From positions 1 to 34,547 of the forward strand of contig CANMIP010000041.1 of assembly GCA_947497945.1 (NCBI GenBank): a stretch of 34,547 nucleotides of DNA. Direction: 5' to 3'. This DNA is from an uncultured Tropicimonas sp. (GTDB lineage: Bacteria; Pseudomonadota; Alphaproteobacteria; Rhodobacterales; Rhodobacteraceae). Under the pieces are notes generated by a model. That model searched no databases and was not told where the DNA came from. It saw nothing but the letters and a program-made list of their open reading frames with translations. This document shows positions 1 through 11,770 of this stretch, in pieces. A program made the position numbers and the translations under genes. Position 1 is the stretch's first letter. Each line of letters begins with the position of its first letter.

Positions 1-97
1 CTTGCCCAACCCGAAACCGATCAATATCAAACCCGCAGACTCTCGTTATGACTGAGAGATCAACGGGGGGCAGGTCACCTTCAAAGAGATCCCCAAC

Positions 98-673
98 GTG
101 ATCCTCGCCGGAACCTACGCCCTGCCCGAGAGCCAGTACATCGGCTTGGCCCATGCCAGCACCGGCATACCTGTTGGCGACAACCTCCCCGACGACCTCG
201 TCAACGAGATCCGTCTCGGCGAGCATGGTCACAACATCCTGCAGGGTCTCTGTCGGGCTTCTGTGCGGGGAAGCCTTGGCTCTCGATGCCGTCCCTGCAA
301 CGCCTATATCATCGCGGCCAAGGGTTCAGGTATCCGGAAGGCGCTGCCAACATGGTTTCCCGGCTGCAAGGTGAAGACTTGGCGACCACACCACAAGTCG
401 CTGCAGGGAAAGGTGAAGGATGCCGTGGAGTACCTGAAGCGATGCCTTGTTGCTGATCCAACCATTGCAATCACCTTCAGCAAACTAATGGCGGTCTTGA
501 GAATCTCCAATAAGTCCAACTTCAACAAAATGATCAGGAAGCATGAGGACTTCAAGGAGGCTATCGAGGCCCTTGGTCTGGAGGAGGTGCCCATTGGCAC
601 GAGTCGTTACCTGAACGCCTTCAGACCGGTCTGGGATCCGGATCCGGATGGCGACTACATCGCGGATGTTTAG
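98..673 (+). CDS. C-terminal piece of a helicase-like mobile-element protein, possibly broken
   Basis: This 191-residue frame starts at a GTG with no convincing ribosome binding site. The same frame is also open from base 2 until a TGA at 53-55 and then reopens, so the frame may be the tail of a longer gene interrupted by one stop. Near residues 48-55 it has a QGLCRASVRG stretch that resembles the arginine-rich motif VI region of superfamily 2 helicases. This is followed by CRPCNAYIIAAK and a block ending in KVKTWRP, then a charged helical tail. I do not recognise the exact family. It lies on the integrase side of the tRNA-Leu, which fits an integrated element. It could instead be an intact small gene of unknown function. 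Confidence 0.4.
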   Translation: MILAGTYALPESQYIGLAHASTGIPVGDNLPDDLVNEIRLGEHGHNILQGLCRASVRGSLGSRCRPCNAYIIAAKGSGIRKALPTWFPGCKVKTWRPHHKSLQGKVKDAVEYLKRCLVADPTIAITFSKLMAVLRISNKSNFNKMIRKHEDFKEAIEALGLEEVPIGTSRYLNAFRPVWDPDPDGDYIADV

Positions 674-970
674 GGGTCACATGTCTGAGAGGCTATCCTA
701 TCTCGGGGGAGGGCGAACTTCCCCCATACCCTTGCTCGACGTCACCAGCCACGGCATGAAAGGCGCTCTACAGCCTCAACGAGAGGTCCGAATGAGAACG
801 ACCAAGGGTACCTGTAGGGAGGCTGTAGGGGTTGGTCCAGCGCCGTAGACCAGATCGTAGACCAACTGGTGCCTCTTGACGGGGAATCACCAATGCAGAT
901 ACCCCTTGTTTTGTTGAAGGGAGACCTGAAGAGGGTGCCTGCAACGGGAACTGAACCAAAGATCACCAGA
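674..970. other. Non-coding stretch of the element, with short direct repeats
   Basis: No convincing gene is seen between the helicase-like fragment and the left inverted repeat. Short frames present on both strands lack ribosome binding sites and recognisable protein sequence. The notable content is a run of short direct repeats at 812-864, described separately. The stretch sits where the arm of an attachment region would lie if the integrase acts on the neighbouring core. Confidence 0.5.
812..864 (+). repeat. Phased short direct repeats (CTGTAGGG x2, CGTAGACCA x2), candidate integrase or excisionase arm sites
   Basis: CTGTAGGG occurs at 812-819 and 823-830, 11 bases apart. CGTAGACCA occurs at 844-852 and 856-864, 12 bases apart. 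The same CGTAGACCA nonamer recurs at 1038-1046 in the left inverted repeat and, on the other strand, at 2230-2238 in the right one, immediately in front of the integrase start. Spacing near one helical turn is typical of protein-binding arrays. Arm-type sites of tyrosine integrases are short direct repeats close to the core, so this role is plausible but inferred. Confidence 0.45.
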
Positions 971-1054
971 TCTCCTGGGCACCATCCCATCAGGTAAGCC
1001 GCTGTTTCCCTTCAGTTTTCGCCAATGCGAGCTGGGGCGTAGACCATGCTGGAG
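971..1054 (+). repeat. Left 84-bp inverted repeat: tRNA-Leu 3' end plus integrase leader and start codon
   Basis: This block matches the reverse complement of 2222-2305 at 83 of 84 positions. Reading rightward it contains the last bases of tRNA-Leu with CCA, about 60 bases of spacer, a GGGG where the right copy has the Shine-Dalgarno GGAG, and ATG CTG GAG. It ends exactly where the integrase stop codon (TTA on this strand, 1055-1057) begins. The only mismatch is at 1036 versus 2240. In the present orientation its ATG opens only a 12-codon frame (1046-1084). It is inverted relative to the tRNA, so it is not a normal directly repeated att site. Confidence 0.9.
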
Positions 1055-2230
1055 TTATGCTGCCGTGTTCAACCATTTGCTTAGTATTTCCAGTGGGTAA
1101 CCTGAGCCGTAGCTCTGTCCGACGCCCTCCGTCTGCCAGCCGCCGATCTGGTCCACGATGTCTGCCGGGCACTCAACTGCCCGCAGTCTGTCCCGCATCG
1201 AGTGACGGAAGCTATGCATGGTGCAGCTTTCTGGCCCGTATTGCTTGATCCATTTGTTCAGCGCTGCGCTGGCTGAGTTCGCATTTGTGGTTTCAGTCTT
1301 GTTATAGCGAGGGAAGGCGAATTTGCTTCCGGTCTCCGTCTGCAAGACCCGCTTTGCTGCCCATAGAGCCGATCCGACCAACGGAACCTTGCGGCTGCTG
1401 CTCGCGGTCTTGAGGCGTCGCCATGAATGTTCCTGCACGACCAAATGCGGAACAGGATCATCAAGCTTCAAATCGTCTCTCAGCAAACCTGCGGCCTCGG
1501 CAAGGCGCATTCCAGTGTCCGCGACCAAAGCCACCAGCCATCGTAGTTCATCATCGAGGTTACGGCATTCGCACTGAAGCTTGCGGATGGTGTCCAGCGG
1601 TAGCGGCGCTCTTTCCTCGACGCCTGCCTTGCGGTCGAAATACACCTTCCCGAATGGGTTGTTCATGTCGATGCCAGTCTCGCTTGCCGCGAAGTTGATG
1701 ATAGAGCGAACAGTTCCGAAGATCCGCGTGATGCTGCTGCCTGCAAGCTTCCGCTCGATCAAGTTGTCGCGAAAGGCGTTGGCGTCCTTCTTGGTGTAGG
1801 CAGTGATGTCCTTATCGCCACAGATGTCGATCACATAGCCACAGGACCGTTCAGCCGCACGGTGGAAGGTGACGGGACGACCACTCCCTTTGAGGCGCAG
1901 GTAGATGCCCACAGCTTCGGAGAGGGTGACTGTGTTCTGCTCAGTCCCCGCCTGAGGTGTTTGTAGACTCAAAGCAGACTGGCTCTGACATCGCAGACGG
2001 TGCTTTCCGGGCAGGTCAACATCCTGAACACGGAGGTGGTACCAGTGTTCATCGAGTTGCAGCGCCGCTCTCGTTGCCCTGGTGTTGGCTACGACAGCCG
2101 ACTTGGTCCTCAGCGAGTAGCTGATCCTGTCGGTGTCATAGTGGTGGGAAAGGTCGCTCGGGACACGACGTGAGAAATAGAAGATCCCTTGCTTCACAAA
2201 TGTGAAGGCGGCAGTTTTGGTCTCCAGCAT
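1055..2230 (-). CDS. Tyrosine recombinase / site-specific integrase
   Basis: This 391-residue phage-type integrase would recombine attachment sites at the neighbouring tRNA-Leu. An N-terminal arm-binding-like part is followed by a core-binding SAM-like region (about 105-200) and a catalytic domain. Visible catalytic elements are the first arginine in DTGMRLAEAAGL, a lysine in the KTASSSRKVPL strand, the HSFRHSMRDR box, GGW, and the nucleophile tyrosine near the C-terminus in GQSYGSGY. The ATG at 2228-2230 is preceded by GGAG eight bases upstream. The gene follows the tRNA-Leu on the same strand after 61 bases with no terminator visible, so read-through from the tRNA promoter could express it. 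The body, from codon 4 to the stop, fills exactly the space between two inverted repeats. Base composition looks less GC-rich than neighbouring chromosomal genes, consistent with transfer. Confidence 0.9.
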   Translation of the reverse strand: MLETKTAAFTFVKQGIFYFSRRVPSDLSHHYDTDRISYSLRTKSAVVANTRATRAALQLDEHWYHLRVQDVDLPGKHRLRCQSQSALSLQTPQAGTEQNTVTLSEAVGIYLRLKGSGRPVTFHRAAERSCGYVIDICGDKDITAYTKKDANAFRDNLIERKLAGSSITRIFGTVRSIINFAASETGIDMNNPFGKVYFDRKAGVEERAPLPLDTIRKLQCECRNLDDELRWLVALVADTGMRLAEAAGLLRDDLKLDDPVPHLVVQEHSWRRLKTASSSRKVPLVGSALWAAKRVLQTETGSKFAFPRYNKTETTNANSASAALNKWIKQYGPESCTMHSFRHSMRDRLRAVECPADIVDQIGGWQTEGVGQSYGSGYPLEILSKWLNTAA

Positions 2231-2305
2231 GGTCTACGCTCCAGCTCGCATTGGCGAAAACTGAAGGGAAACAGCGGCTTACCTGATGGGATGGTGCCCA
2301 GGAGA
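2222..2305 (-). repeat. Right 84-bp inverted repeat overlapping tRNA-Leu 3' end and integrase start
   Basis: This is the partner of 971-1054. On the minus strand it runs from inside the T-arm and acceptor 3' strand of tRNA-Leu through CCA, the intergenic spacer, Shine-Dalgarno GGAG (2239-2242), the integrase ATG and codons 2-3. The two copies face each other, so recombination between them would invert the integrase body rather than delete it. Confidence 0.9.
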
Positions 2306-2378
2306 GGACTCGAACCTCCACGTCCATACGGACACTAGCACCTGAAGCTAGCGCGTCTACCAATTCCGCCACCTGGGC
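2292..2378 (-). tRNA. tRNA-Leu (anticodon CAG)
   Basis: On the minus strand the 7-base acceptor GCCCAGG pairs with CCTGGGC, and the discriminator A and CCA are encoded. The D-arm reads GGCGGAATTGGTAGAC. The anticodon stem CTAGC/GCTAG encloses loop TTCAGGT, giving anticodon CAG. A long variable arm TGTCCGTATGGACGTG marks a class II (leucine) tRNA, and the T-loop is TTCGAGT. It reads CUG codons. Its 3' end is the target of the adjacent integrase and is copied in the left inverted repeat. Confidence 0.95.
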
Positions 2379-3593: not shown

Positions 3594-4397
3594 TCAGCCA
3601 TAGGCCATCCAGAGAAGCGCCAGCCCGAGAAGGACCCGGTAGATCACGTAGGGCGTGAAGCTGACCGAGCGCAGCAGGCGCATCATCAGGGTCAGCGCGA
3701 ACAGGGCGGCGACAAAGGCGAAGGCGGCGGCGATCGAGGCGTCCTTCAGCAGCGCCATGTCGCCATCCGAGATCACGTCGAGGCCGAGCAGCGTGCCTGA
3801 GGCCATGATGGTCGGGATCGACATCAGCATGGCGATCCGCGCCGCATCCGAGCGCTCGTAGCCGAGATGGCGGGCACCGGTGATGGTGATGCCCGAGCGG
3901 GATGTGCCGGGGATCAGCGCCACTGCCTGCCAGAGCCCCAGGATCCACGCGTGTTTCATCGACCAGTCCTCGGCGTGCAGCTCATGCGAGCCCTTCTGGT
4001 CGGCCCAATAGAGGACAAGGCCGAAGATCAGCATCGTCCAGCCGATCACGGCGATGGAGCGCATGGCCTCGTCGAGGCCGGTCACTTTCAAGGCCAGGCC
4101 GACGAGAACGACCGGGATCGTGGCAATGGCGAGCAGGAGGGCGAGGCGGGCGCCGGGCGTGTCGACCTTGCCGACCAGGAGGCGCGGCACGCCACCAAGC
4201 GCGATTTTCACGTCGGACCAGAAATAGAGAATGACCGCGAAGAGCGTGCCGACATGCGTGGCGACGTCGATGGTCAGGCCCTGGTCGTCGAGGTTGGTCA
4301 AGCTGGGCAGGAGAATCAGGTGGCCCGAGGAGGAGACGGGCAGAAATTCGGTAAGACCCTGAATTACGGCGACAAGGAGAATGTGAAAGAGAGACAT
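3594..4397 (-). CDS. uppP: Undecaprenyl-diphosphate phosphatase
   Basis: UppP (BacA) is a membrane enzyme that dephosphorylates undecaprenyl diphosphate to recycle the lipid carrier for peptidoglycan and other surface glycans; loss gives bacitracin sensitivity in the family. The 267-residue protein is the usual length and is hydrophobic with several membrane segments. The two signature motifs are present: QGLTEFLPVSSSGH at 13-26 and PGTSRSGITITGA near 165-177, containing the conserved glutamate, serines, histidine and arginine. I start it at the ATG ending at 4397 (MSLFHILL), because the 39 extra residues possible upstream are arginine-rich and non-conserved. It is convergent with the NDUFA9-like gene and divergent from gltD. 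Confidence 0.95.
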   Translation of the reverse strand: MSLFHILLVAVIQGLTEFLPVSSSGHLILLPSLTNLDDQGLTIDVATHVGTLFAVILYFWSDVKIALGGVPRLLVGKVDTPGARLALLLAIATIPVVLVGLALKVTGLDEAMRSIAVIGWTMLIFGLVLYWADQKGSHELHAEDWSMKHAWILGLWQAVALIPGTSRSGITITGARHLGYERSDAARIAMLMSIPTIMASGTLLGLDVISDGDMALLKDASIAAAFAFVAALFALTLMMRLLRSVSFTPYVIYRVLLGLALLWMAYG

Positions 4398-4545
4398 TGG
4401 CGCGAGGCCTCTTGGAGGAAAATCGCGCGCACTGTAACCGGATGATTCTGAATGGAAAGAGATTAGAAGTGTACGTCTTGCTGACCTAAATTTGCGGCGA
4501 CGCAGCGAAAACACGACGATATGGGGCGATCAATCCAACAAATAG

Positions 4546-4560
4546 GTCACGATTTGTGAC
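4546..4560. promoter_or_regulatory. GTCAC-N5-GTGAC dyad upstream of gltD
   Basis: A perfect five-base inverted repeat (4546-4550 and 4556-4560) lies 56 bases before the gltD GTG, in the 219-base divergent region between uppP and gltD. Its symmetry and placement suit an operator for a dimeric regulator of the glutamate synthase locus. It does not match the NtrC consensus well, and no regulator can be named. Confidence 0.35.
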
Positions 4561-4616
4561 TTTATTTCCCCGTCGCGCGGGTGTAAGCAGCCCGGACTGA
4601 ATGATGGAGGCAGCCA

Positions 4617-6053
4617 GTGGCCAAACAGCGAATGCTCCAATTCGTGTCCGTGGACAAGCAGATGCCCGCCAAGCGCGAGGCTGACCAGCGGGCGCATGAT
4701 TTCCTGGAGATCTATGGCGAATTTGTCGAGGCGAAAGCCGAGGAACAGGCTGGGCGGTGCAGCCAGTGCGGGGTTCCGTACTGCCAGTCGCATTGCCCGC
4801 TGCACAACAATATTCCCGACTGGCTCCGGATGACGGCCGAGGGCCGTCTGCAGGAAGCCTATGAGGTCAGCCAGCTGACCAACACCTTCCCGGAGATCTG
4901 CGGGCGGATCTGTCCGCAGGACCGTCTCTGCGAAGGCAATTGCGTTATCGAACAGTCCGGGCACGGCACCGTGACGATCGGCGCAGTCGAGAAATACATC
5001 ACCGACACGGCTTGGGAAAACGGCTGGGTACAGCCGATCAAGCCTGCGTCGGAGCGGACCGAAAGCGTGGGGATCATCGGCGCCGGCCCCGGTGGGCTGG
5101 CTGCGGCGGACCGGCTGCGGCGCGCAGGGATCCAGGTGACCGTATACGACCGCTATGATCGCGCCGGCGGGCTGCTGACTTATGGTATTCCGGGTTTCAA
5201 GCTCGAGAAGGACATCGTCATGCGCCGCAACGACCAGCTCGAGCAGGGCGGGGTCGAGTTCGTGTTGAACTGCAATGTCGGCGAGGACATCTCCTTCGCC
5301 GAGATTCGCAAGAAGCATGACGCGGTTCTGATTGCGACCGGTGTCTACAAGTCGCGCGACCTGCAGGCGCCGGGCTCCGGTGCGCATGGCATCGTGCGTG
5401 CAATTGATTACCTGACGGCGTCGAACCGGAAGAATTTCGGCGATGCTGTGCCCGAATATGACAGCGGTGAGTTGAATGCCGAGGGCCGCAAGGTTGTTGT
5501 CATCGGCGGCGGCGACACGGCGATGGACTGTGTGCGCACGGCGATCCGGCAGGGCGCGACTTCGGTGAAATGCCTCTACCGTCGGGACCGCGCGAACATG
5601 CCGGGCTCGCAGCGCGAGGTTCAGAATGCCGAAGAAGAAGGCGTTGTCTTCGAGTGGCTGACCGCGCCGAAAGGCTTCACCGGCGAGCCGGTCACGGGCG
5701 TGATGGTGCAGAAGATGCGCCTTGGCGCGCCGGATGCCTCCGGGCGTCAGCGTCCCGAGGTGATCGAGGGGGCCGATTATATCGAAGAGGCCGATCTCGT
5801 CATCAAGGCGCTTGGCTTCGAGCCCGAAGAGATTCCCTCGCTCTGGGGTGTCCCGCAGCTCGAAGTGACCCGCTGGGGCACGATCAAGGCCGATTTCCGC
5901 AACCATGAAACCTCCATGGCGGATGTCTATGCGGTGGGTGACATCGTGCGCGGTGCCTCGCTTGTGGTCTGGGCGATCCGCGACGGGCGCGAGGCCGCCG
6001 ACGAGATGATCGAGCGGTTCGAAGCGGCCGGACACGGTGTTGCGGCCGAATAG
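4617..6053 (+). CDS. gltD: Glutamate synthase (NADPH) small subunit
   Basis: GltD supplies electrons from NADPH through FAD to the large subunit GltB, which converts glutamine and 2-oxoglutarate to two glutamates in ammonium assimilation. The 478-residue protein has the N-terminal cysteine clusters for two 4Fe-4S centres (C48, C51, C56, C60 and C95, C99, C105, C109). It also has the FAD-binding GIIGAGPGGLAAADRL (152-167) and a second Rossmann VVVIGGGDTAMD near 292-303 for NADPH. The start is GTG at 4617 with GGAGG seven bases upstream. It is the first gene of a gltD / exported protein / GFA / gltB cluster, unlike the more common gltB-gltD order. Confidence 0.97.
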   Translation: MAKQRMLQFVSVDKQMPAKREADQRAHDFLEIYGEFVEAKAEEQAGRCSQCGVPYCQSHCPLHNNIPDWLRMTAEGRLQEAYEVSQLTNTFPEICGRICPQDRLCEGNCVIEQSGHGTVTIGAVEKYITDTAWENGWVQPIKPASERTESVGIIGAGPGGLAAADRLRRAGIQVTVYDRYDRAGGLLTYGIPGFKLEKDIVMRRNDQLEQGGVEFVLNCNVGEDISFAEIRKKHDAVLIATGVYKSRDLQAPGSGAHGIVRAIDYLTASNRKNFGDAVPEYDSGELNAEGRKVVVIGGGDTAMDCVRTAIRQGATSVKCLYRRDRANMPGSQREVQNAEEEGVVFEWLTAPKGFTGEPVTGVMVQKMRLGAPDASGRQRPEVIEGADYIEEADLVIKALGFEPEEIPSLWGVPQLEVTRWGTIKADFRNHETSMADVYAVGDIVRGASLVVWAIRDGREAADEMIERFEAAGHGVAAE

Positions 6054-6084
6054 GGCCGCGACGAAGGCAGGAAGGGATCGGAAC

Positions 6085-6813
6085 GTGGATCGACACCTGA
6101 CAGGGATCTGGATGATCGCGTGTGCGCTGGCGTTTTCGACGTCGGCGCAGGCAGGCACCGTTGAGGTGCCCGAGGGCTGCGATGCCTTTCTGACGGTGCA
6201 GCAAAAGAATTGCGGTGTCTCGCATTACTGGCGCTGCGAAAAGGCTCCCGAGGGCACGGTCTGGGAAGTGCATTACGACGTTGAGGGGGTCTACTCCCTC
6301 TCCGTCTACGATCGCGAGTTCCAGTGGCTGGACAGCCAGTATTACCGGGACGGCACCCGTGAACATCTCGTCGGCGACGCGCCGGACCCGGCCTCGATGA
6401 GCGAACTGCTGGAAAGCGGTTCGGACAGCTATGCTTTCGTGATCCGCGAGGATGGACCGGAGGGGAGCCGCGATGTGGTTCACCAGGGCTATGACAGCCT
6501 GACCGGCCGCACGGTCGAGATCGATGGCGTGTCACTCCTGGAGACGGAATTCGCCTCCACCGCGATGGACGCGGTGAGCGGCGAGGAGATCTTCGCCGTG
6601 GCTGGCAATCAATATGTGCTGGTCGAGGAGAGGCTCTTTTTCCTCGGCCCGGACAGTTTCCTCCAGGATGGCGAAGAGATGTCCAACGATTTCAGCCCGG
6701 TACGGTTCATCCGCCCGGGCGAGGCAGGGTTCACCGACATGACCCCGCTCTACGGATGCGACGCCAGCGAGGAAATCCTGTTCCGCCCGCAATTGCCGGA
6801 GGCCGCGGAATGA
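6085..6813 (+). CDS. Exported cysteine-containing protein of unknown function
   Basis: I do not recognise the family. The likely GTG start at 6085 is preceded by AGGAAGG and gives a signal peptide: hydrophobic ILWMIACALAFSTSAQA-like core ending near residue 24 at an AQA cleavage site. The mature part, about 220 residues, has cysteines in EGCDAFLTVQQKNCGVSHYWRC near its start and another near its end, suggesting periplasmic disulfides, and is otherwise acidic and beta-rich. The frame can be extended upstream to 6037 inside gltD, but that would bury the signal peptide. Its stop overlaps the next start (ATGA), so it is probably translated with the GFA and gltB genes. Its presence between the glutamate synthase subunits does not by itself tell its role. 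Confidence 0.75.
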   Translation: MDRHLTGIWMIACALAFSTSAQAGTVEVPEGCDAFLTVQQKNCGVSHYWRCEKAPEGTVWEVHYDVEGVYSLSVYDREFQWLDSQYYRDGTREHLVGDAPDPASMSELLESGSDSYAFVIREDGPEGSRDVVHQGYDSLTGRTVEIDGVSLLETEFASTAMDAVSGEEIFAVAGNQYVLVEERLFFLGPDSFLQDGEEMSNDFSPVRFIRPGEAGFTDMTPLYGCDASEEILFRPQLPEAAE

Positions 6814-7231
6814 AGGGGCGCTGCATGTGTGGGGCCGTCACGCTGGACGTGACGCCGGAAAAGCGCGAGCTGCATGCCTGCCATTGCGAGATGTGCCGGC
6901 GCTGGACCGGGTCCGCTTTCGTCGAGATCGACGTGGCGGCACCGGATCTGACGGTCGAGGGGCCGGTGAAAACCATCGCCTCCTCTGACTGGGCCGAACG
7001 GGCCTGGTGTGACGCCTGCGGTTCGGCGCTCTGGTACAAGATCACCCTGCCCGGACATGAGCGCTACTCGGTCGCCGCGGGGCTGTTCGAAAATGCCGGC
7101 GGCTTCACGCTGGCCAAGGAAATCTACATCGACTGCAAGCCGCAAGGGTTCTCCTTTGCCGGCGAGCGTCTCACCGAAACGAAATCCGAAGTCGAGGCAC
7201 GATTTGCCTCCTTTGCACAAGGAGAGTCCTG

Positions 7232-7232
<1 letters not shown>
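6810..7232 (+). CDS. GFA-fold zinc-binding protein (Gfa/CENP-V family)
   Basis: This 140-residue protein has the zinc cysteine pattern of the glutathione-dependent formaldehyde-activating enzyme fold. CMC is at residues 5-7, CHCEMC at 24-29, and CDACGSALWY about 70 residues in. The family name derives from a Gfa protein proposed to speed S-hydroxymethylglutathione formation, but most members have no proven activity, so only the fold is assigned. The ATG at 6810 overlaps the previous stop by four bases (ATGA), and the stop overlaps the gltB ATG (TGATG), giving tight translational coupling. A longer upstream start within the previous gene is unlikely because the CMC motif belongs near the N-terminus. 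Confidence 0.85.

Positions 7233-11770
<4,538 letters not shown>

Follow-up and report, generated by a model that had tools for sequence, protein, structure and literature searches.

Judged from its sequence organization, the integrase gene studied here forms the tRNA-proximal end of a larger integrative element, and the repeat arm beyond its stop codon, together with the outer flank of that arm, represents a complete second attP (P-core-P', termed attP2) in inverted orientation. This attachment-site layout, a tRNA-inserted island with 2-micron-like topology, is real and conserved and is undescribed as far as a search of the open-access literature shows (no description of two inverted attP sites was found in titles and abstract starts). 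According to the best reading of the layout, the excised circle would probably be inverted by its own integrase, perhaps for replicative amplification. The window, i.e. the whole stretch of DNA analysed (34,547 nt), is the entire contig C41 of a draft assembly with 115 contigs (Table 1).

Table 1. Features at the tRNA-proximal end of the element in the window
Feature	Position	Strand	Remark
Terminus of a repeat present in several copies (probably an insertion sequence); truncates the element and closes the contig	1..77	+	Contigs C29, C36 and C52 begin with the identical sequence
Helicase-like element gene, C-terminal part; 5' end cut by the repeat at 1-77	98..673	+	Genes of 633/636 aa in L058 and TM1040 are 43-49% identical
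P arm of attP2, a conserved block in which GGTGCCTGCAACGGGAAC closely precedes the core	840..970 (about)	+	
Putative arm-type site GTAGACCA in P arm	845..852	+	
Putative arm-type site GTAGACCA in P arm, 12-bp spacing to the previous site	857..864	+	
Left inverted-repeat arm (core and P' arm of attP2)	971..1054	+	
Putative arm-type site GTAGACCA in P' arm of attP2	1039..1046	+	
Tyrosine integrase, 391 aa	1055..2230	-	DUF6538 and Phage_integrase
Second putative arm-type site GGAGACCA, 12 bp deeper in the gene	2218..2225	-	
Right inverted-repeat arm (core and P' arm of attL, up to and including integrase codon 3)	2222..2305	-	
Putative arm-type site GTAGACCA over the integrase start codon	2230..2237	-	Covaries with P-arm sites across loci
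Core at attL, final 14 nt of the tRNA (TCTCCTGGGCACCA)	2292..2305	-	Also at 971-984
tRNA-Leu(cag), complete, integration target	2292..2378	-	ARAGORN

Inverted repeat around the integrase gene

The two arms of the inverted repeat comprise 84 nt each, are separated by a 1167-nt spacer and differ at a single position (1036 G/2240), so that recomputation reproduced the originally predicted match at 83 of 84 positions; they frame the integrase gene from codon 3 to the stop codon. The runner-up among the inverted repeats reported for the 34.5-kb window is 42 nt long at 74%. In each arm, 14 nt of the tRNA-Leu(cag) 3' end are joined to the leader and integrase codons 1 to 3; the last base of the right arm is the end of codon 3 (2222), and the left arm stops one base short of the stop codon (1055-1057). 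In silico inversion of positions 1055 to 2221 gave an unchanged 391-aa protein starting at 1046, and the predicted recreation of a complete integrase by inversion is therefore correct.

The integrase starts 61 bp past the end of tRNA-Leu(cag), and the element is inserted at the tRNA 3' end with the tRNA restored. Six residues (R242, K274, H339, R342, W365 and Y374) are invariant across 30 aligned integrase relatives. Taken as the catalytic set of the family, they are complete in the window protein and assign it to the tyrosine recombinases. No homology to Flp was found, the protein being a phage-type integrase with DUF6538, a domain for which no paper was found in the open-access literature. 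In a PDB profile search with the integrase, two 'Int protein' sequences were the sole, weak matches.

The copy in the window is truncated, and its mobility as a complete unit may be lost. Its helicase-like gene is cut at about position 76 by the multi-copy repeat, and the remainder of the gene was not found in the assembly (E 0.001). Likewise, a third exact copy of CTCCTGGGCACCA is absent from the genome assembly, and no attR was found for this copy. A related integrase in the same genome (contig C37, L014 9894-11220), located at tRNA-Phe(gaa), breaks off after approximately 105 codons, with what resembles an IS3-type transposase frame behind it (by inspection). A more distant integrase (32%; contig C26, L013) is located at tRNA-Leu(gag) without an inverted repeat.

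Second attachment site and putative arm-type sites

The outer flank of the left arm corresponds to a block common to 19 aligned loci, which consists of TTGAC, CCTTGTTTTGCTGA and GTGCCTGTAACGGGAA (variable) and is followed by the tRNA-end core. The block is recognizable, in more variable form, in most of the 34 loci displayed and not in L076 and L116; L116 is a rearranged copy with 59 nt of the repeat without core and an adjoining inverted piece of the P arm. An 18-nt P-arm pattern also matched one unrelated contig (L123). A sigma-70 promoter in the P arm, an idea raised by the TTGAC box, was discarded after a consensus scan, which gave no sigma-70-like promoter at positions 680 to 2420.

The tandem GTAGACCA-n4-GTAGACCA of the P arm matches the GTAGACCA over the integrase start, and the putative arm-type sequence changes jointly in other elements, to GTAGTAC in L016 and L058, GTAGAAC in L060 and TGACC in L067 and L071; in L062 the arms disagree (GTAGAAC vs GTAGTAC). 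An exact match between P and P' tandem sites at 12-bp spacing was found in 20 of 35 testable loci compared to 0 of 700 shuffled P arms, the other 15 loci being without an exact tandem match. With at least 11 of 12 letters, the match was present in 25/35 loci and in 9/700 shuffles. The matched sites are located 99-129 nt from the outer edge of the arm. That the repeat takes in the start codon is probably due to the overlap of this codon with the putative P' arm-type site GTAGACCA. A cassette consisting of the integrase only and bounded by the two arms was rejected, given the conserved P arm outside the left arm and the third core that ends complete elements.

Conservation in Alphaproteobacteria

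Integrase searches, which overlapped in part and counted the window's own genome, gave matches in 49 of 394 genomes of the family (E 1e-30), 25 of 390 of the order (E 1e-90) and 10 of 385 of the class (profile, E 1e-60); 13 integrase loci were obtained from GTDB contigs. A total of 58 distinct integrases, all of full length and without interruption, were scored from the window and 71 loci; broken or partial integrases, re-fetched short loci and partial genes (L025, L029-L057, L083-L104, L128-L146) were left out.

A flanking inverted repeat of 27 to 265 nt was present in 51 of these 58 integrases, including two marginal members (L120 with a 27-nt repeat only, L069 with 77% identity). It was not found for L073, L075, L151, L164, L158, L126 and a second, more distant integrase in L110; the contigs of L158 and L126 stop 83 and 196 bp past the gene, and L126 has attP2-like sequence after the stop codon and an altered 5' end (by inspection). 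A complete tRNA was located upstream in 39 of the 51 loci with repeat, representing 15 anticodons (Leu cag, caa, taa, gag; Phe gaa; Thr tgt, ggt, cgt; Ser tga, gga; Arg ccg, acg; Gly gcc, ccc; SeC tca), with the selenocysteine tRNA as target in L162. Another genome of the genus, G005 (L015), encodes a 63% identical integrase; the leader and tRNA end of this gene are quite different in sequence, and an inverted copy of both comes directly after it. The class of tRNA-inserted elements characterized by this layout is widespread in Alphaproteobacteria; its members are referred to here as twin-attP elements.

None of nine control recombinase loci (L006-L008, L010, L012, L013, L052, L055, L056; approximately 3-4 kb each, five with a tRNA somewhere on the locus) contained an inverted repeat, which excludes the repeat as a general property of integrases; a tenth control locus (L009) gave no tblastn match. 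Among plasmid records, 34 showed a match, only one of them with a coverage of at least 80%, namely TM1040, where the element is integrated. Phage records yielded three matches at 25-31%, and three integrase loci came from viral contigs. In L063, L064 and L112, the integrase frames continue beyond the position of the usual stop (ADMVYGS...) and enter the inverted arm, the C-terminus thus being encoded by the attP2 arm.

Complete elements and their ends

Eleven relatives (4.3 to 13.2 kb) are complete. They end in an ordinary attR, formed by a third, directly oriented core that follows a nearly identical P arm. Of the 22 loci that extend 8 kb or more past attP2, 11 contained the three cores along with both repeat pairs, which overlap in the 15- to 28-nt core; in the other 11, the second P arm was not found in the stretch fetched. 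The integrated order is tRNA, core, P', integrase, inverted attP (P'-core-P), cargo, P, core and host, the P-side arms (197-3183 bp) being 97.8-100% identical. One complete element, of about 12.8 kb, resides on the complete megaplasmid of Ruegeria sp. TM1040, and the same layout with different sequences was found in the single-contig genomes G052, G606, G520, G860 and G1026. These complete and single-contig relatives rule out chance as the origin of the repeat.

Since attL and attR are both present in the 11 relatives, the inverted copy represents an additional complete attP. The original prediction had set the arrangement apart from ordinary tRNA-integrating elements; this stands for the extra inverted attP and fails for the ends, as direct repeats exist there too. 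From attL and attR, we infer that the cores are the actual recombination sites. If attL and attR are joined, the result is a circle with two head-to-head attP sites, which separate an integrase half (between the P' arms) from a cargo half (between the P arms). That 16 of the 51 repeat-bearing loci end within 300 nt beyond attP2 would be explained by the P arm being a two-copy repeat.

For L117, an empty site was identified in the same-genus genome G296, where an uninterrupted tRNA-Leu(gag) is followed, 135 nt on and with no integrase in between, by the homologous right flank (69% over 0.5 kb). The corresponding site for L110 was not found in G1033, where the flank is located behind another tRNA-like end with an integrase-like frame (by inspection). 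No second recombinase is annotated between attP2 and attR in TM1040, and conjugation or relaxase genes were neither recognized among the cargo proteins scanned (part of the cargo ORFs) nor annotated in the TM1040 element.

Arm co-evolution and orientation of the halves

In all 49 loci whose repeat measures 60 nt or more, the identity of the two P' arms was equal to or higher than that to the best other locus, and in 32 of them it was exactly 100%; the median P' identity to the nearest other locus was 75%. L058 has two P arms without a single difference over 3183 bp, compared to 86.6% identity over 2.2 kb between the P arms of L058 and L016. Since identity within pairs equals or exceeds that between loci, the arms of one element evolve together.

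Differences in orientation were found for the cargo half and not for the integrase half. On the chromosome of G052, 5054 bp of cargo (89% identical) are present in L068 and L071 in opposite orientations relative to the integrase; as the two integrases share only 52% identity, cargo halves have also been exchanged between element types. The helicase-like gene adjoins attP2 in some elements and attR in TM1040. With P-side arms of up to 3183 bp, homologous recombination alone could flip the cargo without the integrase.

A flipped integrase was not found in any of the 58 cases. No tRNA was recognized up to 3 kb past the stop codon, and in 42 of the 58 a complete tRNA on the strand of the gene immediately precedes the integrase. 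This indicates that the products of attP1 x tRNA recombination dominate or that flipped forms are lost. The comparison with related genomes for either orientation, suggested earlier, thus gave one integrase orientation only, and the originally predicted self-inverting integrase switch in the chromosome is not supported.

Proposed mechanism and alternatives

It is likely from the arrangement of the sites that the integrase of an element with two inverted attP sites integrates and excises at the tRNA and also recombines both attP sites, and that the arms are kept alike in this way. Excision by attL x attR recombination would produce a circle with two inverted attP sites. Recombination of the two attP sites of one element would then turn one half relative to the other while regenerating both sites, as Flp does, and exchange at the attP pair, or gene conversion there, would keep the arms alike. 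A flip during replication would lead to a double rolling circle and a higher circle copy number. That a double rolling circle with raised copy number is the payoff of the flip is a tentative guess by analogy, albeit the likeliest one. If true, one recombinase would serve integration, excision, isomerization and copy-number control, and restriction systems and other cargo would ride on a half-circle able to turn round. A point against the proposed mechanism is that attP x attP recombination is poor in phage lambda.

It is improbable that the second attP is a passive relic without a role, left by a head-to-head inverted dimer circle which lost one integrase and in which gene conversion keeps the arms alike. 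Arm lengths do vary widely (27-265 nt on the P' side, 197-3183 nt on the P side), and the second arms of L068, L070 and L072 retain 103-185 bp of the integrase 5' end, as would fit such an origin; yet the second site keeps its core and recognizable arms across integrases down to approximately 50% identity, and a useless copy should have decayed in many lineages instead of persisting as flanking repeat in 51 of 58. A switch of integrase expression, with inversion between attL and attP2 moving the gene between the tRNA promoter and a P-arm promoter, is quite improbable. Such an inversion would yield an identical integrase, and integrase genes with state-dependent promoters have been reported in ICEKp1 (PMC13023037), but neither a flipped integrase (0/58) nor a sigma-70-like promoter in the region scanned was found. 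Very improbable, too, is a docking site, i.e. an attP2 left free in the chromosome for other circles to insert and build arrays. It would agree with the several copies per chromosome (four matches each in G052 and G1026) and with the second integrase of L150, where P-arm-like sequence runs into core and P' arm like a tandem junction (by inspection); tandem growth, however, requires only attL or attR, and no insertion at an attP2 core was noticed on incidental inspection. An assembly or amplification artefact, a caveat of the original prediction to which the draft assembly and the contig end approximately 1 kb away might point, is practically excluded, and for the family refuted, by the same layout in the complete TM1040 megaplasmid and the single-contig genomes.

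Comparison with known systems

Twin-attP elements, for which integrase-driven inversion of the excised circle is the preferred reading, resemble tRNA-targeting islands and ICEs in the integrase directly downstream of the tRNA 3' end, the restored tRNA, the varied cargo and, in complete relatives, the direct core repeat at the far end. They differ in the extra complete inverted attP after the integrase and the duplicated P arms around the cargo and, from ICEs, in that no conjugation genes were recognized among the proteins scanned. Tyrosine-recombinase DNA switches such as fim and the shufflons have inverted sites around a segment. The recombinase sites of twin-attP elements are likewise inverted around a segment, which here is the recombinase gene itself and occurs in one orientation only.

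The 2-micron circle has two inverted recombination sites (FRT) in inverted repeats, two unique halves and a recombinase encoded on the circle, and inversion by Flp gives rise to two isomeric forms and is able to initiate double rolling-circle replication (PMC3147054). Compared to this description, the inverted repeats of twin-attP elements also contain putative recombinase sites and split the circle, and the elements encode a recombinase; in contrast, they insert in tRNA genes, have putative arm-type sites and a bacterial phage-type integrase, and their autonomous replication and flipping are hypothetical. By analogy, a bacterial counterpart of the 2-micron plasmid, in which the integrase flips the attP pair on the excised replicating circle, starts double rolling-circle replication and then reinserts the element, is conceivable, if rather doubtful, and offers a testable parallel. 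The strand-biased elements SE-6945 and SE-6283 are described as carrying two recombinase genes (intA and intB) and 19-bp imperfect end motifs (PMC9345347). Like these, twin-attP elements are marine bacterial, integrative, equipped with a tyrosine recombinase and bounded by inverted core-like motifs; unlike the SEs as described there, they have one recombinase, full attP sites and tRNA targets.

Cargo and neighbouring sequences

Replication-type genes are part of the cargo in several elements. L068 has phrog matches to DNA primase and replication origin binding, L153 encodes an AEP primase with PriCT and DUF5906, and the helicase-like family is present in the window, L016, L058, L059, L064, L105, L110 and TM1040; no recognizable replication gene was found among the ORFs scanned in L117, L149 and L150. 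The structure model of the helicase-like gene product is of low confidence (pLDDT 65, pTM 0.38), and its best Foldseek matches, XPD/DinG helicases, are weak (TM approximately 0.2-0.3), for which reason the gene is named helicase-like only.

In the TM1040 megaplasmid (L082, 21511-32430), identical BRO genes within the inverted arms flank a type I restriction system. L058 contains two divergent repeat-rich genes of secreted type (3771-10219 relative to the integrase start) with different N-termini and identical C-termini, and its long P-arm repeat extends into both of them. More related integrases were located downstream in L150, L149 and L154, or behind a core preceded by unrelated or P-arm-like sequence, an arrangement resembling tandem arrays. 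In L017/L107, L018 and L058, a fragment of approximately 47 bp from the 3' part of tRNA-Phe was observed, which starts near the anticodon stem and seems to be the mark of another island type that cuts there; in L018 and L058, the twin-attP elements are located directly downstream of these fragments.
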